A stretch of 36,662 nt of DNA from Dongia deserti. Its GTDB lineage: Bacteria > Pseudomonadota > Alphaproteobacteria > Dongiales > Dongiaceae. Shown piece by piece: positions 1,949-15,870 of the stretch. The notes under the pieces were generated by a model that saw nothing but the letters and a program-made list of their open reading frames with translations, was not told the DNA's origin and did not search any database. Position 1 is the stretch's first letter, and every line of letters starts with the position of its first letter. The translations under genes were made by a program, and so were the position numbers. The stretch is from the NCBI RefSeq assembly GCF_003574735.1, contig NZ_QORW01000034.1:1-36662 (forward strand), written 5' to 3'.

Positions 1949-3058
1949 CTAAAGACCAGCCTGCACGTCTTCCCACAGCTTGATGTAGCGCAGGTCGTCC
2001 TCTGGCTTGAGCGGTCGGAAGAAGACGCTTTCCTTGAGCATCGACGCCGGATCACTCAGCGCCAGGCCTTCCAGTCGATCTTTGCTCACGAGGTCATATG
2101 CGTCCTTGTTGGAGTGTGCCAACCCATAGACGTCGAGCAGGAATTGCCCCGTCTCGGGCGATATCCAGTCATCGATCAGATCGTAGACGGCATTCTCGCT
2201 TGCGGTCCCACCCTTGATTCGCACGAGGCCGGACACCCACGTCCAGACGCCTTCCTTGGGCTTCGCGTATTTGACTGGCACGCCTTGCTTGGTGAGATTG
2301 GCATAGGAGCTGTTCCAGGCATGCATCAGAACGATTTCGCCCGATGCCATAGCCTGTTCGGCCTGCGTCGGATCATCCCAGTAGAAGCGGGTTAGATCGC
2401 GTTGCTTCCGAAGCAGGTCGAGGATGGGGCCGCGGAGTTGGTCGTCGGGCACATTGAACATATCAAGTCCGAGCGTCGTCGCCGCGGCATAGACATTGTA
2501 CTTCTGCCGCCATGGGCTGATCTTTCCCTGGTAGCGCTCGTCAAAGAGCATGTTCCAGCTCTCTTCGCCTTCGTAGAGATCGGAGCGGTAGAGGATCGAG
2601 GCGTTGCCAAGGTCGGCCGGAACCATGAGGACATTACCGTCAAAGCTGACACCGGCCATGTTCTGCAGTTCCGGAAATACGCTGGACCAATTCTTCAGGC
2701 GCGACGTGTCGATCGGCTGAAGCAGCCCGGAATCGTGCCACTTGATCATGTCGTCGATGGACGGATGCCCGACATCGACGACGTAGCCAGCCAGCATCTT
2801 CTGCAAGGCTTCTTCCTGGTTTGCCATGATGGCGGTTCGCGGCATGGTTCCGTGCTTCGCCACGTACGGCTTGAACAGGTCTGGAGCATCGTAGCCGGAC
2901 CAGGTATAGAACAACGGCTCCTCGGCGGCCGCCGCAGTACGGCAGAGCGGCAGCGTCACGCTCACCAAGCCGAGGGACGCCATGTATTTGCCGAGCTGTC
3001 GTCGGCTGAGCTCGCCATCGCGAAACTTCCTGATCATGTCGGAGTGACGCTTGCTCAT
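1949..3058 (-). CDS. PotD-like periplasmic substrate-binding protein (ABC transporter)
   Basis: The 369-residue protein begins with a twin-arginine type leader (Arg19-Arg20, a hydrophobic stretch at about 26-37, then an Ala-rich cleavage region near 42-46). The body, starting LFYTWSGYDAPDLF, is typical of the spermidine/putrescine-type extracellular solute-binding family. It would capture a cationic amine or amino-acid-like ligand in the periplasm. The matching permeases and ATPase are not adjacent but lie at 6931-9868, and no other binding protein is in the window, so I infer one split transporter. A GGGAGG ribosome site lies 8 bases before the ATG. The 219-bp gap upstream contains a weak copy of the LysR dyad described at 9981. 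Ligand unknown. Confidence 0.85.
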   Translation of the reverse strand: MSKRHSDMIRKFRDGELSRRQLGKYMASLGLVSVTLPLCRTAAAAEEPLFYTWSGYDAPDLFKPYVAKHGTMPRTAIMANQEEALQKMLAGYVVDVGHPSIDDMIKWHDSGLLQPIDTSRLKNWSSVFPELQNMAGVSFDGNVLMVPADLGNASILYRSDLYEGEESWNMLFDERYQGKISPWRQKYNVYAAATTLGLDMFNVPDDQLRGPILDLLRKQRDLTRFYWDDPTQAEQAMASGEIVLMHAWNSSYANLTKQGVPVKYAKPKEGVWTWVSGLVRIKGGTASENAVYDLIDDWISPETGQFLLDVYGLAHSNKDAYDLVSKDRLEGLALSDPASMLKESVFFRPLKPEDDLRYIKLWEDVQAGL

Positions 3059-3277: not shown

Positions 3278-4138
3278 TCAGAGCAAGTCCCTCAGAAAGC
3301 GTCCAACTTGCTCATTGAAAGCACTGAGATTGTCGTCGTGAACGTAGTGCGAGGCGGACTCAATCTCCGCCCAGCGAATGTTTGAGTTCCGCCGCGCCAT
3401 TTCCTCGGCAGTGGCGCGGCTGAGGAAGTCCGAATGTTGTCCGCGCAGGACGAGGGTGGGACAGGCTATTCGATCCACATGGGGCCATAGGTCGACTTGT
3501 CGCGCAGGATTATCGTCCAAGCGCGCTTGGCGGATGCCCAGAAAGTCATACTTCCACACGACGCGGCCGTCCGGCGCCTCTTTAAGCGTGTGTGCCATGC
3601 GGGATCGGATGCCCTCGGCGGAAGCTGTTGGCCGTTGCCGCCGCCAATAGGCCTCAGCTTCTGTCCAGGATGCGAAGAAGTCCGGCGCATTGCCCAGCTC
3701 GGCCTTGATCCTGCCGGCACCCTCGGACCCTATCGAGGCGCCGGGCCCCATGTCCTCGATCACCGCTGCCACAACGCGATCCGGGTGTCGCGCGCCGTAG
3801 ACGAGTGAATTGGCGCCGCCCATGGAGTGCCCGATCAGCACAAAGCGGATGAGCTGAAGCTGGTCGACAAACGATTCGAGATCGGAGACGTATTGTTCGG
3901 TCCGATAGTCCGTCCAGGGGCCCCAAGCGCTCTCGCCGCGGCCTCGCTGATCCAGCGCGAGGATGCGAAAAGAACCACGCAGCGGCTCGGCGACCGAATC
4001 CCAGGTGTGGGCATAGCCGCGAAGGCCGTGCAGCATGACCACAGCCGGCGCGCCCTCGTTGCCCCAATCCAGATAGTGCAGACGCAGGCCGTTGATCGTC
4101 ACGAAGCGGTCGACTGGCGCCTCGCGCGGAGCGATCAC
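3278..4138 (-). CDS. Alpha/beta-fold hydrolase
   Basis: This 286-residue protein has the full alpha/beta hydrolase signature: the oxyanion motif MLHG at 35-38, the nucleophile elbow GHSMGG with Ser105, a likely acid Asp237 in RGQHSD, and a likely base His264 or His267 in SASHYVH. No signal peptide is seen, so it is probably cytoplasmic. Its start overlaps the stop of the AA_synth gene by 4 bp (ATGA type), which points to translational coupling and a shared pathway. Ester, lactone or C-C bond hydrolysis are all possible in this superfamily; nothing in the sequence picks one. Confidence 0.85.
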   Translation of the reverse strand: MIAPREAPVDRFVTINGLRLHYLDWGNEGAPAVVMLHGLRGYAHTWDSVAEPLRGSFRILALDQRGRGESAWGPWTDYRTEQYVSDLESFVDQLQLIRFVLIGHSMGGANSLVYGARHPDRVVAAVIEDMGPGASIGSEGAGRIKAELGNAPDFFASWTEAEAYWRRQRPTASAEGIRSRMAHTLKEAPDGRVVWKYDFLGIRQARLDDNPARQVDLWPHVDRIACPTLVLRGQHSDFLSRATAEEMARRNSNIRWAEIESASHYVHDDNLSAFNEQVGRFLRDLL

Positions 4139-4740
4139 CGCAGCCCGTCCCGGCCCTCGATCTCGTCCGGACGGAGGCCGCCAAGACGGGCATGGAGCCG
4201 ACCTCTGGTCGCCACCCCGACGATCACGACCACTTCGTCGAGGGACGGCGCATCAGTGAAGGTGGCAGTGATGGTGTCATAGTGCGAGCGCACATAGAGC
4301 GCATCCTTGTGCGCCAGGGGGATGTCGATCGCGCTTCCCGCTGCGCCGCGCTTGCCTGTCGAGGGGAACCATGCCTTGCCGCCTCCCAAAGCGGATCGAA
4401 TGGGGTCGGCAAAGGCGTTGGTGAGGTAGGCGTTGCCATGCTCGTATTCCCCCAGCAATCCCACGATCGCCGCCTTTCCATAGCTTTGGACCGCCCGGCG
4501 GCCGACGATTGCTTGCAGGCGGCGGCCGAATTCCTCACCGAGGAGGCGTGAGTTCTCGACAATCCCGTCAAGCGTCGCGCTGAACGTCCCGGCATATGGA
4601 TTGTGGATCGCTGCCGCAATGGCGATCTTGTGTAAAGGCTCGCCATCGACCAGCGGGCCGGTCTCCAGAGCATGGGTCTCCTCGATGAACGCGTACCACT
4701 TCCGGACGTGATAGCCGCAGAAATTTGCCTCTTTCACCAT
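4135..4740 (-). CDS. AA_synth / DUF1185 family protein (putative amino-acid metabolism)
   Basis: The 201-residue protein matches the family annotated as amino acid synthesis (PF06684, formerly DUF1185), recognised from the internal AAIHNPYAG motif near residues 43-51, the EYEHGNAYL stretch and the LAHKDALYVRSHYDT block. The family has structural data but no settled reaction; roles in amino-acid or cyclic-amide metabolism have been proposed from context. Here it lies 40 bp after the VOC gene and overlaps the hydrolase gene, so the three are likely one transcript. A GGAG ribosome site precedes the ATG closely. The function stays open. Confidence 0.8.
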   Translation of the reverse strand: MVKEANFCGYHVRKWYAFIEETHALETGPLVDGEPLHKIAIAAAIHNPYAGTFSATLDGIVENSRLLGEEFGRRLQAIVGRRAVQSYGKAAIVGLLGEYEHGNAYLTNAFADPIRSALGGGKAWFPSTGKRGAAGSAIDIPLAHKDALYVRSHYDTITATFTDAPSLDEVVVIVGVATRGRLHARLGGLRPDEIEGRDGLR

Positions 4741-4780: not shown

Positions 4781-5248
4781 TCACGCGCCAGGCATGATTG
4801 CGTCCAGCTTCATCGGCGTTGCCGGCGCGTGCAGGTCGTGCAGCATGCGCCGCGCCTGCTCCCCGTGTGCGAGCCGCGCGAACAGCTCCAGCTCGTTCCC
4901 ATCTGGATCCAAGAAATAGACACCCCAGGCAATTCCGTGGTCCGCGATCTCGGTGATCTGGACCTTCTTGGCGATCAGCCGGCCATAAAGGGCGCGGAGT
5001 TCCTCTGCGCCTCCTTCTATCTCCAGTCCGACATGCTGCAACCCGAGTTTGCTCGGCTGCGCGTCAGAAGGCGCCGCGAAGAGGGCGATGTCATGATCCT
5101 GCTCGCCAAACGAAAGGAATATCCCGCCGGCTCCCCGGGCGGTTTCAATCATCCCTAGAACGTCTTTGTACCAAGAGGCAGAAGCCTCCGGATCTCGGAC
5201 GTTGAATACGACGTGGCCAACCTTCCTGATGGCAGGCGTTAGCGACAT
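4781..5248 (-). CDS. VOC family (glyoxalase/dioxygenase fold) protein
   Basis: This 155-residue protein has two beta-alpha-beta-beta-beta modules of the vicinal oxygen chelate fold. His12 (VGHVVFNV), His72 (LQHVGLEI) and Glu121 (GNELELF) form a plausible 2-His-1-Glu metal site, so it is probably an active metalloenzyme: dioxygenase, glyoxalase or epimerase. The ATG at 5248 is preferred over an in-frame TTG at 5254, because GAGGAG lies 8 bases before the ATG but only 2 before the TTG. It is the promoter-proximal gene of the minus-strand series and diverges from the aminotransferase gene across a gap with a LysR-type dyad. Confidence 0.85.
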   Translation of the reverse strand: MSLTPAIRKVGHVVFNVRDPEASASWYKDVLGMIETARGAGGIFLSFGEQDHDIALFAAPSDAQPSKLGLQHVGLEIEGGAEELRALYGRLIAKKVQITEIADHGIAWGVYFLDPDGNELELFARLAHGEQARRMLHDLHAPATPMKLDAIMPGA

Positions 5249-5427: not shown

Positions 5428-5449
5428 ATTGTTATGCCTGCTCAACAAT
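5428..5449. promoter_or_regulatory. Putative LysR-type operator between VOC and aminotransferase genes
   Basis: ATTGTT-N10-AACAAT is a perfect six-base dyad. The right half is part of CTCAACAATCT (5441-5451), an 11-mer that recurs as its reverse complement at 9979-9989 and again directly at 10049-10059 around the LysR start. LysR-type proteins typically bind interrupted dyads of this size with T and A at the ends. It lies between two divergent catabolic genes, so it could control both. Which LysR protein binds it is inferred from the shared sequence. Confidence 0.65.
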
Positions 5450-5540
5450 CTAAGATTTCGAACGACTGGTCCATGGCCGCTCCCTATAGACGCTGAATCG
5501 GTGTCTGGATCGGTCAAGGGCTGCAGCGTCGGAGGAACAG

Positions 5541-6896
5541 ATGAGCGCGCGCAACTATCCGAGTGCCTTCTTGCATCCGTTCTCGCATTTGCCGACGCTC
5601 GATGAATCGGGCCCAGTGATCGTCGATCGTGGCGCCGGAATCTACATCTACGACGATCGAGGAAACCGCTATCTCGAAGCGAATTCCGGCCTCTGGAATG
5701 CAGTGCTCGGCTTCGACAACAAGCAGCTGATAGAGGCCGCGCAGAGAGCCTATGCGAAGCTGCCCGCCTACCACACGTTCTTCGGCCGCGTCAGCCAGGC
5801 CGCTCTCGACCTGTCAGAGCGGCTGGTCAGGCTGGCGCCGATGGAATCCGCTCGGGTGTACTACGCGAACTCCGGATCGGAAGCGAACGACACCGTCGTG
5901 AAGCTGCTTTGGTTTCTCGCCGAAGCGGAAGGACGTCCGCACCGCCGGCTGCTGCTGAGCCGCCGCAACGCCTATCATGGCATGACGATCGTCTCTGCAA
6001 GCCTGACCGGCAAGGACTACGTCAAGTCCGCTTCCGGACTGCCGATCGCCGAGGTTCGGCACCTCACGTCCCCCCACTACTGGCGCGAAGCCGCTGCGGG
6101 AGAGTCAGAGACCGCATTCTCCGCGCGATTGGCTCAGGAGCTGGAGCAGACCATCCGAAATGTCGGCCCCGACTTCGTCGCCGGTTTTTTCGCGGAACCG
6201 GTGATGGGTGCTGGCGGCGTCATCCCACCGCCGCAGGAATACTTTGCGGCGATCCAGCCCGTCCTCGAGAAATATGGCATTCCCCTCATCGCCGATGAGG
6301 TTATCTGCGGATTTGGGCGCACCGGCGAACTCTGGGGCTCGCGGAAATACGGCATCAAGCCCGACATCGTCGTGGCTTCGAAGGTGATCACGGCGGGGTT
6401 CTTCCCGATGGGCGCCATCATCCTTTCCACGGAGATGGCGGCGCGGATCGAAAAGGCGTGCGCGAAATATCAACAGCTGCCCACGGGCTTCACCACCGGT
6501 GCTCACCCGGTTGGCTGCTCGATTGCAATGGCTGTGTTGGACCAGTTGCTTGAGGGCGGCGTGTTCAAGCACGCTCAGTCGATCGCGCCGCATTTCCAGG
6601 CGGGGCTTGGCCGATTTGCAGATCACCCGATGATTGGGGAGGCCCGCGGGGTCGGTCTCATGGGCGCGCTGGAAATCGTCGCCGACAAGGAAACGAAGGC
6701 GCCGTATCCCGCAAGCCTCGAAGTAAGCGAGCGGGTAGCAGGGCAGGCGATGAAGAATGGCCTGATTTGCCGGCCGCTGGGCCCGGCCATCGTATTGGCG
6801 CCCCCGTTCATCATCACCAAGCAGCAGATCGACGAGCTGTTCGAGCTCCTGCGGCGAACGCTGGACGATGTCCACGCCACGCTGCCAAAGACGTAG
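5541..6896 (+). CDS. Class III PLP-dependent omega-aminotransferase
   Basis: The 451-residue protein is a full-length fold-type I class III aminotransferase of the group that includes putrescine-, taurine- and beta-alanine-pyruvate aminotransferases. Visible are the Asp252 motif ADEV that contacts the PLP ring nitrogen, the Schiff-base Lys281 in VVASK, the SGSEAND phosphate-binding stretch at 111-117, and TGFTTGAHPVG near the C-terminal third. It would move a terminal amino group to pyruvate or another oxoacid and release an aldehyde or oxoacid. GGAGGAACAG places a strong ribosome site before the ATG. The gene faces the PotABC-like operon and diverges from the VOC operon, and a shared operator ties it to uptake. 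Polyamine or omega-amino-acid breakdown is the leading guess. Confidence 0.9.
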   Translation: MSARNYPSAFLHPFSHLPTLDESGPVIVDRGAGIYIYDDRGNRYLEANSGLWNAVLGFDNKQLIEAAQRAYAKLPAYHTFFGRVSQAALDLSERLVRLAPMESARVYYANSGSEANDTVVKLLWFLAEAEGRPHRRLLLSRRNAYHGMTIVSASLTGKDYVKSASGLPIAEVRHLTSPHYWREAAAGESETAFSARLAQELEQTIRNVGPDFVAGFFAEPVMGAGGVIPPPQEYFAAIQPVLEKYGIPLIADEVICGFGRTGELWGSRKYGIKPDIVVASKVITAGFFPMGAIILSTEMAARIEKACAKYQQLPTGFTTGAHPVGCSIAMAVLDQLLEGGVFKHAQSIAPHFQAGLGRFADHPMIGEARGVGLMGALEIVADKETKAPYPASLEVSERVAGQAMKNGLICRPLGPAIVLAPPFIITKQQIDELFELLRRTLDDVHATLPKT

Positions 6897-6923
6897 CCGA
6901 CGGCCAGCGGCTGGCTCACGAAC

Positions 6924-6938
6924 GGGGCTCTTAGCCCC
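6924..6938. terminator. Compact hairpin between convergent aminotransferase and ABC ATPase genes
   Basis: GGGGCT at 6924-6929 pairs perfectly with AGCCCC at 6933-6938 around a 3-nt loop. It includes the stop codon of the ATPase gene and fills most of the 34-bp gap between convergent genes. A second tight dyad, GCCAGC/GCTGGC, lies at 6903-6915. There is no T-run, so the terminator role is inferred from position. Confidence 0.4.
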
Positions 6939-8043
6939 CCGCCTGGGGCAGCAGAACGCTCGATTCCACCGGCCACGTCAGCCAGACCCGGCGGCCGCGC
7001 GCCTCCGTGGTGTCCAGCGAGCGCTGTGAATTCTGCAGGGCGACTGCGATATGGTGTGGAAGGCCCGAGACCTCTACGTGGTAATGACTGCGATCACCGA
7101 AATAGGCCTCGGCAGTGACCCGGCCGGCAACTGAGTTTGTGACCCCTTGTGGTGGTTGCCAGGCGATTTCCATTTTCTCCGGGCGCACCGCTACAGTGGC
7201 TTTGGCACCACGTCTGGTGGCATGGCCGTTCACAGGAACGCGCAGGGCGCCGGCCGATCCGGCATCGACCGTGGCGATGTCGCCATCGACATCCGTGACG
7301 GTCCCGTCGAAGAAGTTCATGGATCCGATGAAGCCGGCGACCTCCCGGCAGCTCGGCGCTTCGTAGAGTCGCGCCGCCGAATCGACCTGAAGCGTCCTTC
7401 CCTTCGACATGACTGCGATCCTGTCGGACAGGGCCAAGGCTTCCTCCTGGTCGTGAGTGACGAAGACGAATGTGATTCCGACCGAGCGCTGCAGCTGGCG
7501 CAGTTCAATCTGCATCTCCTCACGGAGCTTTTTGTCCAACGCGGCCAGCGGTTCATCGAGGAGGAGGACCTTAGGGCGGCAAACCAGCGCTCGTGCCAGA
7601 GCGACGCGCTGGCGCTGCCCACCCGAAAGCTGGTGGGCCAGGCGCTGGCCATAGCCGCCCAGGCGGATGCGTTGCAGCGCCTGCTCCACCGTGTCAGCGA
7701 GCTCGGCTTTCGACAGCCCCTTCTTGCGCAGGCCATAGGCGATGTTCTGCGCCACGGTGAGGTGAGGGAAGATGGCGTAGCTCTGGAACACCATATTGGT
7801 CGGACGGGCGTTCGGCGGGACCGCCGACATCGGTTGGCCGTCGATGTAGATCTCCCCACTGCTGGGAACTTCGAAGCCGGCAAGCATCCGCAGAAGCGTG
7901 GTCTTGCCGCAGCCCGACGGTCCGAGCAAGGAGAAGAACTCGCCGCGCTTTATGTCGAAGGTGACATCCTCGACCGCTCGAAGGGAACCGAAGTGCTTCG
8001 CCACGCCCTGCAGGGAGATGAAGCTATTGTCTTTGCTGGCCAT
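6931..8043 (-). CDS. ABC transporter ATP-binding protein, PotA/PotG type
   Basis: This 370-residue ATPase has Walker A at 41-49 (GPSGCGKTT), the Q-loop near residue 87 (VFQSYA), the ABC signature LSGGQRQRVALARAL at about 139-153, Walker B LLLDEPLAALD at 160-170, and a C-terminal TOBE-like extension from about residue 240. That layout is the polyamine/iron/thiosulfate importer ATPase class. It is the last gene of a three-gene minus-strand operon, 6 bp after the second permease. It would energise uptake through the two permeases at 8050 and 8849, with the PotD-like protein at 1949 as the likely partner. Confidence 0.92.
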   Translation of the reverse strand: MASKDNSFISLQGVAKHFGSLRAVEDVTFDIKRGEFFSLLGPSGCGKTTLLRMLAGFEVPSSGEIYIDGQPMSAVPPNARPTNMVFQSYAIFPHLTVAQNIAYGLRKKGLSKAELADTVEQALQRIRLGGYGQRLAHQLSGGQRQRVALARALVCRPKVLLLDEPLAALDKKLREEMQIELRQLQRSVGITFVFVTHDQEEALALSDRIAVMSKGRTLQVDSAARLYEAPSCREVAGFIGSMNFFDGTVTDVDGDIATVDAGSAGALRVPVNGHATRRGAKATVAVRPEKMEIAWQPPQGVTNSVAGRVTAEAYFGDRSHYHVEVSGLPHHIAVALQNSQRSLDTTEARGRRVWLTWPVESSVLLPQAGG

Positions 8044-8049
8044 GATGCC

Positions 8050-8868
8050 TCAGAATCCCGAGTGCTTTTCGGTGGGAATCCCCCCGCGCCGCAACTTCTC
8101 CGCGATGGCGATCAAGAGGAACGACAATACGAGGATGCAGCTGCCGAGCGCCAGCACGTTGGGAAGCTTCTGCGGAAACCGCAACTGGCTCCAGATGAAG
8201 ACGGGCAGAGTGGCGCCGTCGCCGCTCAAGAAGAACGCGATCAGGAATTCGTCGAATGACGCGGTGAAGCACATCAGCAGACTCGAAACGACGCCGGGCA
8301 ACACGATCGGAAACGTGATCCGCCAGAACGTGCTCCAGGCGCTTTCGCCGAGATCAAGAGACGCTTCTTCCAGGCTGCGATCGAACCCCTCCAGCCGCGA
8401 AATCAACACCATCACCGAAAACGGCAGGCAGATGAGGATGTGTCCGGCCGCGACCGTCCACAGCGACAGCGGCACGTCGAACGTCTTGCGAAGCGTGGTG
8501 AGAAGGGCGATGCCAAGGATGATGAAGGGAATGACCAGCGGCACCATGATCAGGCCCACAATGGCCCTGCGACCCGGCAATCGAAAGCGGGTGAGCGCCT
8601 TAGCGGTCAGCAGACCAAACGCAGTGGAGACGATTGACACCGGGATCGCGACGGAAAGGCTGTTGCGCAAGGCCGCGAGCAGGGCGGAGTCCTGCACCAT
8701 TGCCTCGTACCATTTGACGGTGAAGCCCTTGAACGGGAAGGCGATGTAGAGGCTGTCATTGAACGAGAAGAGTGGAAGCAGCAGCATCGGCCCGTAGAGC
8801 AGCGCTATGAACAGCAAGCCATAGAGCTCGAGCCACCCAATGCTCCGCCTACGCATCTTGAACCTCAC
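8050..8868 (-). CDS. ABC transporter permease, PotC/PotI type
   Basis: A 272-residue inner-membrane protein with about six hydrophobic segments, starting with LYGLLFIALLYGPMLLLPLF near residues 14-33. The EAA coupling motif is recognisable as EEASLDLGESAWSTFWRITFPIVLPG around residues 166-191. This is the second permease of a spermidine/putrescine-type importer. Its start overlaps the end of the first permease gene by 20 bp, and its stop lies 6 bp before the ATPase start, so the three are translated together. Confidence 0.9.
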   Translation of the reverse strand: MRFKMRRRSIGWLELYGLLFIALLYGPMLLLPLFSFNDSLYIAFPFKGFTVKWYEAMVQDSALLAALRNSLSVAIPVSIVSTAFGLLTAKALTRFRLPGRRAIVGLIMVPLVIPFIILGIALLTTLRKTFDVPLSLWTVAAGHILICLPFSVMVLISRLEGFDRSLEEASLDLGESAWSTFWRITFPIVLPGVVSSLLMCFTASFDEFLIAFFLSGDGATLPVFIWSQLRFPQKLPNVLALGSCILVLSFLLIAIAEKLRRGGIPTEKHSGF

Positions 8869-9868
8869 GCGCCTTTAGCTTGCTCCCCGTCACCTTCAGG
8901 AACGCACAGACCAGCAGCGTCACGACCAGCATCATGACGAGCGAGACGGCGGAACCGAGGGGTTGGTTGTTGGCCTGGCCGAACAGCGACTGGATCACGC
9001 TGCCAAGCATCTTTCCAGAGCTGCCGCCCACCAATGTTGGCGTGACGTATTCGCCAACCGTGGGAATGAACACCAGCAGGCTCGCTGCGACCACGCCGGG
9101 CATGGAAAGCGGCAGGGTAATGCGCAGGAATCGCTCGATGCGGCTGTCGCCAAGATCCGACGCCGCCTCGAGCAACGACCGGTCGATCTTCTCCAGCGAC
9201 ACATAGATCGGCAGTACGGCAAAAGCCAGCCAGGCGTGCGTCAGGGTGATGATCACCGCTGTGGGATTGTAGAGCAGGAAGCTCAGCGGCTCCTGAATGA
9301 TGCCGGCGCTGATGAGCCCGGAATTGATGACGCCGCCATACCCCAGAATGACCTTCCAGGCGAAGGCGCGCAGCAGATAGCTGGTCCAGAACGGGACGGT
9401 GATCAGGATCAGCCAGCGGATCTTGTTCCTGGTCACGCGAAAGGCGAGGAAATAGGCCATCGGGTAGGCCAGGAGCATGACCGAAAGCGTCACCAGGAAA
9501 GCCATCCAGATGGAGCGCACGAGCAGGACGGCGTAGATCGGCGTCTCCATCTCCGGATACGGCACGATGCCGAGGAAATAGCCGACCTCTCCACTGGGCT
9601 CGAAGATCGTTGCGTAGTTGGCGAGCGTGAAGGAGCAGTCGATCTTGAAGTAGACCTGGGTGCAGAAGCTGGTTAGGAAAAGAGTTGCGACCGGCACAAC
9701 GAGCAGGGCGAATAGCACGGCGAGCGTGGGCATGAGCAGCAAATAGCCGCGCGCGGCATCGGAGCCGAGATACCACGCACGCAGGCGCCGACACAGGACG
9801 ATTGACCATCGCTGCGCCCGTGGCTCCTGGCCTGCCCCGCTACTGATCGCGTCCGCTGCCATCGACAA
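8849..9868 (-). CDS. ABC transporter permease, PotB/PotH type
   Basis: This 339-residue inner-membrane protein has a longer cytoplasmic N-terminus, then a first membrane segment (LLLMPTLAVLFALLVVPVAT) near residues 42-62, and about five more. The EAA loop reads LLEAASDLGDSRIERFLRITLPLSMPG in the second half. It is the first gene of the ABC operon. Its start is separated from the divergent LysR gene by about 150 bp containing the strong dyad at 9981-10002, which suggests LysR control of uptake. Confidence 0.9.
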   Translation of the reverse strand: MSMAADAISSGAGQEPRAQRWSIVLCRRLRAWYLGSDAARGYLLLMPTLAVLFALLVVPVATLFLTSFCTQVYFKIDCSFTLANYATIFEPSGEVGYFLGIVPYPEMETPIYAVLLVRSIWMAFLVTLSVMLLAYPMAYFLAFRVTRNKIRWLILITVPFWTSYLLRAFAWKVILGYGGVINSGLISAGIIQEPLSFLLYNPTAVIITLTHAWLAFAVLPIYVSLEKIDRSLLEAASDLGDSRIERFLRITLPLSMPGVVAASLLVFIPTVGEYVTPTLVGGSSGKMLGSVIQSLFGQANNQPLGSAVSLVMMLVVTLLVCAFLKVTGSKLKAREVQDA

Positions 9869-9980
9869 CGTCCGAGTTCATCCTGAGAGCCTCCCAGACG
9901 GTGCTTGTTCGCGCCGTTCTACCATGGCGAAGAGATCGCGTACTCGAACCTCGCCGCACACGGTCGGGACGGAATTGTAG

Positions 9981-10002
9981 ATTGTTGAGCGCCATTGACA
10001 AT
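9981..10002. promoter_or_regulatory. Putative LysR operator between the ABC operon and its LysR gene
   Basis: ATTGTT-N10-GACAAT matches the dyad at 5428-5449 in length and arms. Aligned in reverse complement, the two also agree in the inner block GCTCAACAAT. It lies 17 bp before the LysR start and about 110 bp before the divergent permease start, the usual place for an autoregulatory LysR site. A third half-site, CTCAACAATCT, lies inside the first codons of the LysR gene (10049-10059) and forms an 11-bp inverted pair with 9979-9989. Confidence 0.7.
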
Positions 10003-10018: not shown

Positions 10019-10942
10019 ATGTTGTTGCATGTGAGCAACTACCGCAATCTCAACAATCTCCCGGCAATGGTGGCCTTCGCGGCCGCCGTGGACCGCGGAA
10101 GCCTTACGGCAGCTGGGAAATCTCTCGGGCGATCGAAGGCTGCGATCAGCCGCCAGATTGCAGAACTCGAAGAGCGGCTCGGCGTTCAATTGCTGCAGCG
10201 GACGACACGATCCATCGCTCTTACTCCGGCGGGCAACGACTTCTATGCACGCTGCTCGACCATCATCGAGACGGCGCTCGAAGCGCAGTCCGAGGTGACC
10301 GCACTGGACTCCAAGCCCAAAGGGACGCTGCGCGTCACGCTGCCGCTGGCATTCACGGTCCTTCAGGCCGGCGGACTGATCCCCGCGCTGTTGGAACGTT
10401 TCCCGGAACTGCGCCTGGACGTGATGCTGAGCGATCGCAAGGTAGACCTCCTGGAGGAGGGCTTCGATGTCGCGTTTCGGCTTGGCGATCCCATGGACCA
10501 GTCGTTGGTGGCCCTGCATCTTGGAGATTGCAAGCTGGTCGTTTGCGGTTCGCCCAAATATCTCAAGCGGCACGGCACCCCGGCAAAGCCGGCCGACTTG
10601 GCGAAGCATGAATGCATCATCGAAACCGGCGACGATGGAAGTGCGGTCTGGATCATCGGCAAGGGGCGGGCGGTCAAAATCAATGGACGGCTGCGCACCA
10701 ACAATGGGCAGATTGCCCGGGCCGCAGCAATCGCTGGCCATGGCCTCACGTTCCTGCCGTCCTTTATCGTGCATGAAGACCTGAAGTCGGGACAGCTGCG
10801 CGCGGTTCTGACCGACTATCTCGATGCCCTCTATCCCATGTACGCAGTGTTTCCGCAGAACAGGAGATCGTCAGCGAAGGTTCGGGCTTTTGTTGACGTC
10901 TTGAAGGAGACGCTGCGCGCCGGCGGCTGGCTCCACAAGTAG
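10019..10942 (+). CDS. LysR-family transcriptional regulator
   Basis: The 307-residue protein has an N-terminal winged helix-turn-helix (GSLTAAGKSLGRSKAAISRQ region, then LEERLGVQLLQRTTRSIALTPAG) within the first 75 residues. A periplasmic-binding-protein-like effector domain follows from about residue 95. The ATG at 10019 follows a GGGTGGGGG stretch; an in-frame TTG at 9995 lies inside the likely operator and is disfavoured, and an ATG near 10067 is a later alternative. It is divergent from the ABC permease gene, the classic arrangement for a LysR activator of its neighbour. The shared dyads suggest it also controls the aminotransferase and VOC genes. The effector is probably the imported compound or a breakdown product. 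Confidence 0.9.
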   Translation: MLLHVSNYRNLNNLPAMVAFAAAVDRGSLTAAGKSLGRSKAAISRQIAELEERLGVQLLQRTTRSIALTPAGNDFYARCSTIIETALEAQSEVTALDSKPKGTLRVTLPLAFTVLQAGGLIPALLERFPELRLDVMLSDRKVDLLEEGFDVAFRLGDPMDQSLVALHLGDCKLVVCGSPKYLKRHGTPAKPADLAKHECIIETGDDGSAVWIIGKGRAVKINGRLRTNNGQIARAAAIAGHGLTFLPSFIVHEDLKSGQLRAVLTDYLDALYPMYAVFPQNRRSSAKVRAFVDVLKETLRAGGWLHK

Positions 10943-12688: not shown

Positions 12689-13708
12689 GTGACCAGAGAA
12701 ATGACAATTCTCGTTGCCACCGATGGGCAAGGCATCCTCCGAAGTGCCGACCATGGGAAGACATGGCAGCGTCTCGACACCGAGCAGGACATCGATTTCG
12801 ATGGCACAGTCCGGTGCTTGATGCCGGACCCCGACGATCCTCACGTCATCTACGCCGGCAGCGAGCAGGGCCTTTGCCGGAGCACCGACGCTGGCGTAAC
12901 GTGGAAGCGCATCGATTGCGTTCTGAAAAATCAGACGATCTGGCAACTCACATACGATCCCACCAACCCAAGCATCATGTTCGCCGGGACGGGGTCGCCC
13001 ACCAGGGCGGCTCTCTATCGGTCCAAGGATCGAGGAGCGTCCTGGCACAGGCTGACACCAGATCTGCCGGAGCGATGCAAGGGCGTCGGACGGCCACGCT
13101 TTGTCACGCTGACAGTGGATCCCACTGACACGAAATCGATATGGGCGGGGGTCGAGGAGACGGGGCTGTTCCACAGCGCCGACGGTGGCGATAGCTGGGA
13201 CCGGATCGATGCTCCCGATCGCGACATCAAGAACACCGACATCCACAGTGTCGTCATCCTGGACGGTCCACCGAAGGCAATTCTCGTGCTGGTCGTCAAT
13301 GCCCTCCATCGCAGCTCGGACGGCGGCCGGACCTGGGACATGCGGGTCGCCCGGGATGCTTTTGGCCTGCGCTATGCGCGGGTCATGCTTGCTCAGCCCG
13401 CCAGCCCCAATACCGTATTCATGGGCATCTCCGATGGTACGCCCGGAACGACGAGCATCATCCTGCGATCGGACGATGCCGGAAAGAGCTGGGAGAAAGT
13501 GCCACTCCCGACCAATCCGAACTCCTGCGTGTGGGCCTTCGGAGCGAACAGCGCCGATCCCGACACGCTCTTTGCCGGCACGAAATACGGTCACCTGTTC
13601 CGAAGCAACGACGGCGGCCGGACCTGGGCCAAGGAGTGGCGTGAATTCAGCGAGATCACGGCCGTGACCTGGGTACCAGTCGCGGCAAAGTCGACGGCTG
13701 CCCATTGA
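12689..13708 (+). CDS. Seven-Asp-box beta-propeller protein (BNR/sortilin-like)
   Basis: The 339-residue protein contains seven Asp-box motifs of the form S-x-D-x-G-x-(S/T)-W, at about residues 19-26, 65-72, 112-119, 163-170, 209-216, 261-268 and 306-313. Each comes 45 to 52 residues after the last, as expected for successive blades of a beta-propeller. Such repeats occur in sialidases, VPS10/sortilin proteins and photosystem assembly factors; here none of the catalytic residues of a sialidase is evident. No signal peptide is visible, so it may be cytoplasmic. The GTG at 12689 is preferred, with GAGG about 9 bases upstream; an ATG at 12701 is the alternative. It sits between the SDR and the flavoprotein genes. 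Function unknown. Confidence 0.8.
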   Translation: MTREMTILVATDGQGILRSADHGKTWQRLDTEQDIDFDGTVRCLMPDPDDPHVIYAGSEQGLCRSTDAGVTWKRIDCVLKNQTIWQLTYDPTNPSIMFAGTGSPTRAALYRSKDRGASWHRLTPDLPERCKGVGRPRFVTLTVDPTDTKSIWAGVEETGLFHSADGGDSWDRIDAPDRDIKNTDIHSVVILDGPPKAILVLVVNALHRSSDGGRTWDMRVARDAFGLRYARVMLAQPASPNTVFMGISDGTPGTTSIILRSDDAGKSWEKVPLPTNPNSCVWAFGANSADPDTLFAGTKYGHLFRSNDGGRTWAKEWREFSEITAVTWVPVAAKSTAAH

Positions 13709-13782
13709 AGGCATACCAGCACGTTTGGTGTGACGTGTTTCACTACGCTGGCTGACATGTCTGTCGGGTGCGGAGGCCGCTC

Positions 13783-15870
13783 TTGAGAGAGTCGCGATAC
13801 GACGTTCTATTCGAGCCGGTTCGAATCGGACCCGTGGTCGCACGCAACCGATTCTATCAAGTGCCTCACTGCAATGGCATGGGACATCGCGCTCCATCAG
13901 GGATGGCAGCCATGCGCCGCGTCAAGGCCGAGGGGGGTTGGGCGGTGGTCTGCACGGAAGTCTGCGAGATTCATCCATCGGCGGACATTTCTCCAAGTAC
14001 TCAGGCAAGACTGTGGGATGACCAGGATCTTCCTGCCTTGGCGCGTGCCGCCGACGCGATACACGAGTTTGGCTCGTTGGCAGGCATCGAACTTGGTCAC
14101 CACGGCTTTCGCGCTGCGAATCGCACGTCGCGCGAGGTGCCGATGGGGCCATCGGCACAGGCGATCGCGGCTTACGATCCGGTTCAAGCCCGTGCAATGG
14201 ATCGAGAAGACATCCGAAATTTTCGCTCCTGGCATAAGGCGGCCGCCCACCGGGCGAGGCAAGCCGGTTTCGATCTCATCTACGTCTATGCAAGCCATGG
14301 TCTCACACTGCCGATGCACTTTCTGTCACGGCGATACAATCAGCGCACGGACGAGTATGGCGGCACGTTGGAGAATCGCACCCGTCTGCTGCGCGAGCTC
14401 ATCGAGGATACCAAGGATGCCGTCGGGGGGTCTTGCGCGGTTCCGGTGCGCCTCTGTGTTGATGAGCTTATGGGCCCCGAAGGGATCTGTGCGGAAGAAG
14501 AGGGACGCGAGATCATTGAAATGCTCGCCGAGCTGCCCGACCTTTGGGATGTAACCGTCAGTGACTGGTCTAATGACTCGATGCCGTCTCGTTTTGGAGA
14601 AGAGGCTGGCCAGGAGAAATACGTCTCCTTCGTCAAGCAGGTTACCAGCAAGCCCGTCGTGGGGGTCGGCCGCTTCACCTCACCCGACGCGATGGTAAGA
14701 CAGATTCGGAAGGGCATTCTCGACATGATCGGCGCAGCCAGGCCGTCGATCGCCGATCCATTCCTGCCGAGAAAGATCGAGGAAGGTCGTCTCGACGATA
14801 TCCGTGAGTGCATTGGCTGCAACATCTGTGTGGCCAGCGACATGACCTATACACCGATCCGCTGCACGCAGAATCCAACCATGGGCGAGGAGTGGCGGCG
14901 GGGATGGCACCCCGAGATCATACCTCCGAAGGAGAATGCGGATCGCATTCTCGTGGTCGGAGGTGGACCGGCCGGGCTGGAGTGCGCCGTGGCTCTGGGC
15001 AAGCGAGGCTACGACGTGACGCTCGCGGAAGGCAGCGAGGAGCTAGGGGGCCGCGTGACCCGTGAGAGTCGCTTGCCGGGGCTGTCGGCCTGGGGACGCG
15101 TTCGAGACTATCGCCTGGGGCAGCTCAGCAAACTCGCGAATGTCGACGTATATCTGGTGAGCCGAATGACGGCTGAGGACGTCCTGCGCGCCGAAGTCGA
15201 CAGGGTAGTACTGGCAACCGGAGCATCCTGGCGACGAGATGGCGTTGCGCGCTATCACCGGCTCCCTATGCGGCGGCTGGACGACGCTGCAGTCTTCACA
15301 CCCGAGGACGTGATCGCAGGCCGTACGATCCGAGGGCCGGTGATCGTGTTTGATGACGATCACTATTACATGGGGGGCGTTGTGGCCGAGATGCTGCGTC
15401 GGCAGGGACTCGAGGTCACGATTGTCACGCCGGCGCCGCTCGTGTCGCAATGGACGGTCAACACGATGGAACAGCCTCGCATCCAAGCCCGACTGCTGGA
15501 GCTAGGCGTGGCCGTCTTGGCAAACCATGGATTGGTCGAGTTTGGCGGCGGGGAAGCCAAGCTGGCCTGCGTCTTCACGCGTCGCTGCACCACGTTGCCG
15601 GCGGCGTCCGTGGTGATGGTGACGTCGCGCGTGCCGCACAACGAGCTCTATCATCAGCTCACTGCATCGGCCGCCCACGTGCAAGATGTTGGAATCAAGT
15701 CGGTGGACTGCATCGGCGATTGCTTGGCGCCGGGCACAATCGCTGCTGCGGTGTTCAGCGGACATCATTACGCGCGCGAGTTCGATCGGCCAAGGGATGA
15801 TGCAGTTGCCTTCCAGCGAGAGATAGCAGAGCTCGGAACATGGTCACCGGCAGGGAAATCGTCGAGCTGA
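13783..15870 (+). CDS. Trimethylamine/dimethylamine-dehydrogenase-like iron-sulfur flavoprotein (OYE family)
   Basis: This 695-residue protein has the layout of trimethylamine dehydrogenase (TMADH): an FMN TIM barrel (1-340), a [4Fe-4S] cluster with Cys343, 346, 349 and 361, then a nucleotide-binding part with GGGPAG at 393-398. Cys30 in PHCNG is at the position that carries covalent 6-S-cysteinyl FMN in TMADH, and Tyr169 and His172 of the active site are kept. Two residues of the TMADH aromatic substrate cage are changed: Tyr60 is Val60, and the position of Trp355 is Asp353. A different secondary or tertiary amine, such as an N-methyl amino acid, is therefore likely. TTG at 13783 is favoured by GGAGG six bases upstream and gives TMADH numbering; GTG at 13768 is the alternative. 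Confidence 0.88.
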   Translation: MRESRYDVLFEPVRIGPVVARNRFYQVPHCNGMGHRAPSGMAAMRRVKAEGGWAVVCTEVCEIHPSADISPSTQARLWDDQDLPALARAADAIHEFGSLAGIELGHHGFRAANRTSREVPMGPSAQAIAAYDPVQARAMDREDIRNFRSWHKAAAHRARQAGFDLIYVYASHGLTLPMHFLSRRYNQRTDEYGGTLENRTRLLRELIEDTKDAVGGSCAVPVRLCVDELMGPEGICAEEEGREIIEMLAELPDLWDVTVSDWSNDSMPSRFGEEAGQEKYVSFVKQVTSKPVVGVGRFTSPDAMVRQIRKGILDMIGAARPSIADPFLPRKIEEGRLDDIRECIGCNICVASDMTYTPIRCTQNPTMGEEWRRGWHPEIIPPKENADRILVVGGGPAGLECAVALGKRGYDVTLAEGSEELGGRVTRESRLPGLSAWGRVRDYRLGQLSKLANVDVYLVSRMTAEDVLRAEVDRVVLATGASWRRDGVARYHRLPMRRLDDAAVFTPEDVIAGRTIRGPVIVFDDDHYYMGGVVAEMLRRQGLEVTIVTPAPLVSQWTVNTMEQPRIQARLLELGVAVLANHGLVEFGGGEAKLACVFTRRCTTLPAASVVMVTSRVPHNELYHQLTASAAHVQDVGIKSVDCIGDCLAPGTIAAAVFSGHHYAREFDRPRDDAVAFQREIAELGTWSPAGKSSS

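Follow-up and report, generated by a model that had tools for sequence, protein, structure and literature searches.

Two matching dyads as candidate operators of a LysR-type regulator in Dongia deserti, and a recognition-helix lysine that tracks such dyads among its relatives

Regulators of the LysR type rank among the most common in bacteria. Their operators, whose textbook form is an interrupted palindrome in the gap between divergent genes, are as a rule difficult to predict from sequence. This report concerns two such palindromes, referred to as dyads 1 and 2, in a stretch of DNA from Dongia deserti (NZ_QORW01000034.1), which was analysed at its full length of 36,662 nucleotides and is called the window hereafter. 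The dyads are about 4.6 kb apart, both inside divergent gaps, and dyad 2 lies just before the gene of a LysR-type regulator, P0001. We propose that both are probably operators of P0001, which would join the gene rows of the two promoters.

The comparisons with described systems draw on excerpts of the cited papers. The best solved-structure match of P0001 is a protein of the same type, CrgA from Neisseria meningitidis (PDB 3HHG, E 3.1e-47; identified in PMC6422896). Where P0001 has Lys40, i.e., the second residue of its SKAA stretch, this CrgA has Asn (ANSAVSR). The CrgA of Pseudomonas aeruginosa SJTD-1 is a LysR repressor modelled on 3HHG, and it too has two footprinted sites before its target gene; these sites, however, are imperfect mirror repeats, and a 46-bp fragment with ACAATTGT and the letters ACAAT was the non-binding control in that study (PMC6422896). 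The lys box of PltR in P. aeruginosa M18 is likewise a 22-bp palindrome in a divergent LysR/operon gap, and was shown to be necessary for binding and activation, but it has 9-bp arms with 4 bp between them and T-N11-A inside (PMC3382589). YhaJ of E. coli, a LysR protein that regulates the divergent pirin-like gene yhaK and is linked to quinol-like compounds, resembles the wrbA/pirin setting in which relatives of P0001 are found; its proposed box differs, being TCA-N7-TGA within T-N11-A, and the excerpt gives it no ATTGTT arms (PMC5031710). The spacings described for OccR (T-n10-A), CutR and PcaQ (T-n12-A) and IlvY (T-n13-A) make a change of spacer a known theme, but the excerpt shows neither ATTGTT arms in these operators nor a same-cell pair of paralogues split by spacer; it also assigns the contact with the conserved thymine to residue 30 in both BenM and CbnR (PMC12609908). 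In a library of open-access papers, screened by titles and abstract openings, we found neither ATTGTT-N10/11-AACAAT as a LysR operator, which unopened full texts may hold, nor the Lys40 rule and the same-cell spacer difference presented below. LysR operators of this general kind are known; novelty may lie in the Lys40 rule and in the differing spacers of two regulators that share a cell.

Dyad 1 (5428-5449) reads ATTGTT-N10-AACAAT and dyad 2 (9981-10002) reads ATTGTT-N10-GACAAT, so that both match ATTGTT-N10-RACAAT exactly. This pattern was absent from 100 dinucleotide shuffles of the window, and it occurs exactly at three places in the 6,126,647 bases of the genome, namely at the two dyads and at C23:175885-175906, where it overlaps the end of an open reading frame (ORF) of 178 residues. 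For three randomly placed sites, the chance that two fall within 4.6 kb is about half a per cent, by an arithmetic that does not count the adjacency to the LysR gene. When dyad 1 is reverse-complemented, 16 of its 22 positions are identical to those of dyad 2, and ATTGTTGAGC is common to both. The shared dyad and its inner block in opposite orientation had been proposed in a sequence-only reading of the window, and both hold; the many genome-wide copies that this reading had named as a point that would tell against it did not occur. The half-site that it had placed inside the LysR gene is also present, with the sequence ATTGTTGAG, at 10049-10057 on the minus strand. This 9-mer, as ATTGTTGAG or CTCAACAAT, occurs three times in the window (5441, 9981 and 10049), versus an expectation of about 0.06 per orientation, but the copy within the coding sequence may be incidental, because it is located in Leu-Asn-Asn codons. 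A genome scan with the pattern ATTGTTGAGC-N6-RACAAT returned, at one mismatch or fewer, both dyads and C1:22347-22368, within an ORF; at three mismatches it returned 51 matches versus 8 for a reversed-pattern control, an excess that is unexplained.

Dyad 1, a proposed operator, lies in the 292-bp gap between the row that starts with the VOC gene and the aminotransferase gene, 179 bp from the start of the former (5248) and 91 bp from that of the latter (5541). Dyad 2, a proposed autoregulatory operator, lies in the gap between the permease genes on the minus strand and the gene of P0001 on the plus strand. It ends 16 bp upstream of the LysR start (10019), near the position of the dyads of relatives, and is 112 or 118 bp from the permease start, for TTG 9868 or ATG 9862, respectively. 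In both dyads T-N12-A is on the axis, as is T-N10-A in dyad 1, and T-N11-A is found off the axis only; in dyads of relatives that have a spacer of 11, T-N11-A is on the axis if the inner arm bases are T and A. A weak sigma-70-like promoter, TTGTCA-N16-TACAAT (9974-10001), overlaps dyad 2 and faces the ABC operon; promoter-like matches were not above chance in number, with 1 found and 1.7 expected.

If a dyad of this form is the operator of P0001, then relatives of this protein should carry one before their own genes. The upstream regions of 192 relatives were scanned, i.e., 106 from whole-genome searches, P0001 with five paralogues from its own genome, and 80 from genome contigs, with one pair identical in DNA. 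The scan covered ATTGTY-Ng-RACAAT, with g from 4 to 18, between -150 and +45 of the match start, and block shuffles served as control. With at most one mismatch, spacer 11 was found in 21 regions and spacer 10 in 8, while each other spacer occurred in 0 to 2; the shuffle mean for spacers 10 and 11 together was 0.55 regions. When two mismatches were allowed, these counts rose to 41 and 16, with 2 to 12 for other spacers. Dyads of this class thus recur before LysR genes of the group of P0001.

The presence of the dyad tracks one residue of the recognition helix. P0001 has both traits, namely Lys40 and ATTGTY-N10/11-RACAAT near the gene start. At one mismatch or fewer, the dyad precedes 28 of 55 regulators with Lys40 and 1 of the 137 others; among proteins with the SKAA helix of P0001 it precedes 12 of 14, and all 14 at two mismatches. 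When proteins were grouped at 70% identity of the helix-turn-helix (HTH), into clusters that are not fully independent, the dyad was found in 13 of 28 clusters with Lys40 versus 1 of 48 others (Fisher p 2.7e-6). The contrast with the latter persists for 12 of 27 clusters when that of P0001 is removed (p 6.7e-6), and for 8 of 23 when all SKAA clusters are removed (p 3.3e-4). Among all residues at 80 HTH columns, tested by clusters (606 tests), Lys40 ranks first, ahead of a runner-up with p 0.0035. Most of what the genome-contig set contributes is negatives; when it is left out, the dyad precedes 27 of 51 proteins with Lys40 and 1 of 61 others. Lys40 therefore looks nearly needed for the dyad, but not sufficient, since about half of the proteins that have it lack a dyad at one mismatch. 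If the SKAA stretch is aligned with the BenM helix, Lys40 presumably directly precedes the equivalent of the thymine-contacting residue of BenM and CbnR. In a tree of 61 proteins, the dyad label (two mismatches) is clustered, with 13 changes versus 19.2 in shuffles, and does not have a single origin. P0001 forms a long separate branch, weakly supported in its position, so its helix and dyad were not simply copied from a near relative.

A search of the genome gave 34 LysR matches with E values of 1e-8 or lower. Among the 30 that were examined, Lys40 is confined to P0001 and one paralogue, C50:151297, and so is the presence of a dyad within one mismatch. The dyads of the paralogue have the same arms and a spacer of 11; one precedes LysR/wrbA and one pirin (G000:C50:151262-151284, L139 4263-4285; G000:C1:23588-23610, L145 5089-5111), and both are kept in all four genomes of the genus that were examined (the other three being G001, G002 and G003). 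WrbA and pirin are putative names, given by our reading of two proteins of this genome. In this cell, then, P0001 is associated with spacer 10 and the paralogue with spacer 11. A census of 17 genomes of the order gave 16 places with spacer 11, 15 of them with loci: five between LysR and WrbA genes, five before pirin, one beside another LysR gene and four elsewhere. Ten places had spacer 10, of which two are the dyads of the window and one precedes a WrbA gene in G005; the remaining seven had no match to LysR, WrbA or pirin within 1.5-kb flanks. We do not claim the spacer as a strict code for paralogues, as spacer 10 is also found before other Lys40 regulators and before the WrbA gene of G005. 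Across the tree, WrbA or pirin was matched in the loci of 21 of 37 dyad-bearing rows and 4 of 24 others (two mismatches; flanks of 1.5 kb, or up to 10 kb for nine rows). The WrbA and pirin of this genome were not matched in the window (tblastn, E 1e-3). P0001 is outside the wrbA/pirin LysR group with spacer 11, by its spacer of 10, by the lack of a WrbA or pirin match in the window, and by its long separate branch. It is conceivable, and we put it forward tentatively, that Lys40 acts as a specificity switch toward ATTGTT dyads in LysR proteins of a widespread group, and that one spacer base keeps apart two regulators with nearly the same helix in this cell, 10 for a catabolic set and 11 for wrbA/pirin.

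The gene of P0001 (10019-10942, plus strand) encodes a protein with HTH_1 and LysR_substrate domains, both above the Pfam cut-offs (72.1 bits versus 26.6, and 139.2 versus 28), and the recognition helix SKAAISRQ. Behind dyad 2, on the minus strand, are genes for two permeases of an ATP-binding cassette (ABC) transporter, PotB-like (8849-9868, if started at TTG) and PotC-like (8050-8868), and for its ATPase (6931-8043). The ATPase alone passes a cut-off of the Pot-type (polyamine) transporters (TIGR01187, potA, 375.9 versus 355.6); both permeases are below their equivalog cut-offs and the solute-binding protein is far below its own. Dyad 1 is flanked on the plus strand by a gene for a class III aminotransferase (5541-6896), which passes the cut-off of NCBIfam PRK06105. 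Behind it on the minus strand is a row with genes for a VOC/glyoxalase-fold protein (4781-5248), an AA_synth protein (PF06684, DUF1185; 4135-4740), an alpha/beta hydrolase (3278-4138), a PotD/PotF-like solute-binding protein (1949-3058) and, at the far end, a thiamine pyrophosphate (TPP) enzyme (194-1855) that passes the cut-off of NCBIfam PRK07524 (5-guanidino-2-oxopentanoate decarboxylase). The solute-binding protein, encoded behind dyad 1, is a possible partner of the permeases encoded behind dyad 2. If the minus-strand rows are operons, the gene set amounts to about ten genes; the sequence-only reading had proposed a regulon of about nine, of which the gene set with shared dyads stands and the count changes. 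The window spans contig C28 of its genome from end to end, and the chromosomal surroundings of the gene set are thus missing from it.

In the scheme that we infer, with its binding, co-regulation, sign, operon structure, transporter pairing and inducer, P0001 would most likely regulate its own gene and control these ten or so genes. Its recognition helix, with Lys40, would read the ATTGTT arms. Bound at dyad 2, just upstream of its own start codon, P0001 would regulate lysR and the divergent permease/ATPase operon; bound at dyad 1, it would control the aminotransferase gene and, in the opposite direction, the VOC, AA_synth, hydrolase, solute-binding-protein and TPP-enzyme genes. One likely transporter, whose membrane part and solute-binding protein are encoded in separate rows, would thus have both switched together by the imported compound or its product, and a shared operator would explain the joint production of these parts. 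The most likely sign is repression of lysR and inducer-dependent activation elsewhere; autorepression fits with dyad 2 ending so close to the LysR start, near where relatives have their dyads. LysR sites are usually about 65 bp before the transcription start. By this rule, which yields arithmetic rather than evidence, transcription would start near 5503 for the aminotransferase gene and near 9926 for the ABC operon, and both leaders would be sensible. A fair guess for the inducer is an amine or aromatic compound. Structures from the AA_synth family have been solved, and a part in amino-acid metabolism has been suggested for it (PMC2954203). HcdD, encoded in a coumarin-degradation operon and induced by 7-hydroxycoumarin, has been placed with the former DUF1185 family, and TgnF of trigonelline breakdown is named as an HcdD homologue (PMC7913881).

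Searches for P0001 orthologues covered 60 relatives and its own genome, 385 genomes of the class (own included), plasmids, genome contigs from 84,980 species (scanned with peptide patterns), and 17 genomes of the order (own included). No close orthologue was found: the best identity was 48% among the 60 relatives and the class genomes, 44.7% in plasmids and 44% among the best 80 of 98 relatives in the contigs, and the other 16 genomes of the order gave no match at E 1e-78 or better. The AA_synth protein, the aminotransferase and the binding protein were also used as queries, and nine loci around AA_synth matches were compared. In four of them, namely on the Burkholderia pyrrocinia plasmid pBPJTT, in Variovorax, in Novosphingobium and in L269, AA_synth relatives (59-66% identity) adjoin hydrolase relatives; in the first three (L266, L267 and L268) a VOC relative adjoins as well. 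In the Burkholderia locus, L266, an aminotransferase (45%) and an ABC ATPase (33%) are encoded at a distance of some 11 kb. Next to its trio (13436-15512) are genes whose annotations read 3-(3-hydroxyphenyl)propionate hydroxylase and succinate-semialdehyde dehydrogenase. L269 contains an ABC ATPase (45%) together with a match to a permease (28%). Among the remaining five loci, L271 has a partial LysR match; exact ATTGTY/RACAAT dyads at spacers 9 to 12 were absent from all nine. The AA_synth and hydrolase pair, joined by VOC in three of the four loci and recurrent in distant bacteria, is possibly a module for aromatic breakdown.

Several of these results weigh against assigning the dyads to P0001. 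The contrast for Lys40 is weaker at two mismatches (39 of 55 versus 13 of 137, with 5.45 of 192 expected in shuffles), and 27 of the 55 Lys40 regulators have no dyad at one mismatch. Conversely, L305, one of the 192, carries a dyad although its helix, SAPS, lacks Lys40, and a spacer-11 dyad in G012 (L276 1501-1523) lies beside a LysR protein with the helix SPSS, also without Lys40; the latter either breaks the rule or is a match by chance within an open reading frame. The spacer of the window dyads is the rarer form among relatives, 8 versus 21, and the long branch of P0001 is away from the other SKAA proteins, albeit with weak support. The searches described above did not turn up any relative that has the gene set in full, which leaves the window dyads without a phylogenetic footprint, and L266 to L269 have neither a LysR match (E 1e-8) nor a dyad. 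Finally, the helix of the paralogue C50:151297, SKAAVSKQ, is near-identical to that of P0001, so that this protein could bind the dyads of the window.

This last point leads to a different assignment, in which the dyads are bound mainly by the paralogue, which faces wrbA, and the gene set is part of a regulon that responds to quinones or to redox state. The paralogue's own sites have the same arms, and the spacer-10 dyad before the WrbA gene of G005 indicates that this spacer is not foreign to such a setting. Yet at both of its conserved sites the spacer is 11 throughout the four genomes of the genus, and dyad 2 lies 16 bp before the gene of P0001, close to where relatives have theirs; we consider this assignment unlikely. 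That the operators belong to another regulator family altogether, with the LysR gene as a bystander, is very unlikely in our judgement. Arms of the ATTGT/ACAAT type are used by other families too, and dyad 1 is 4.6 kb from the LysR gene, but the spacer-specific peak before LysR genes and the association with Lys40 tie this form of dyad to the LysR group of P0001. Chance likeness of two AT-rich promoter stretches seems more improbable still: AT-rich hexamers do occur in promoters, and dyad 2 overlaps promoter-like sequence, but the absence from the shuffles, the mere three exact places in 6.13 Mb and the 16 of 22 positions common to both sites, inner block included, speak against it. P0001 thus remains the probable owner of both dyads. 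Evidence from the protein, namely the dyads before genes of relatives and Lys40, gives good support to the earlier proposal that LysR operators link the two promoters, but the wording of that proposal, that they define a regulon, was too strong. The arms alone do not define the regulon of P0001, because the same arms serve the paralogue with a spacer of 11.

Across 192 upstream regions, the occurrence of a concrete dyad follows one residue of the helix, which amounts to a testable rule for predicting LysR operators and regulons. Whether spacer length insulates regulons could be tested cleanly in this cell, where the two paralogues share their arms and differ in spacer, 10 versus 11. For D. deserti itself, the shared dyad suggests the joint switching of two gene rows between which one likely transporter is split, and this narrows the search for the compound.

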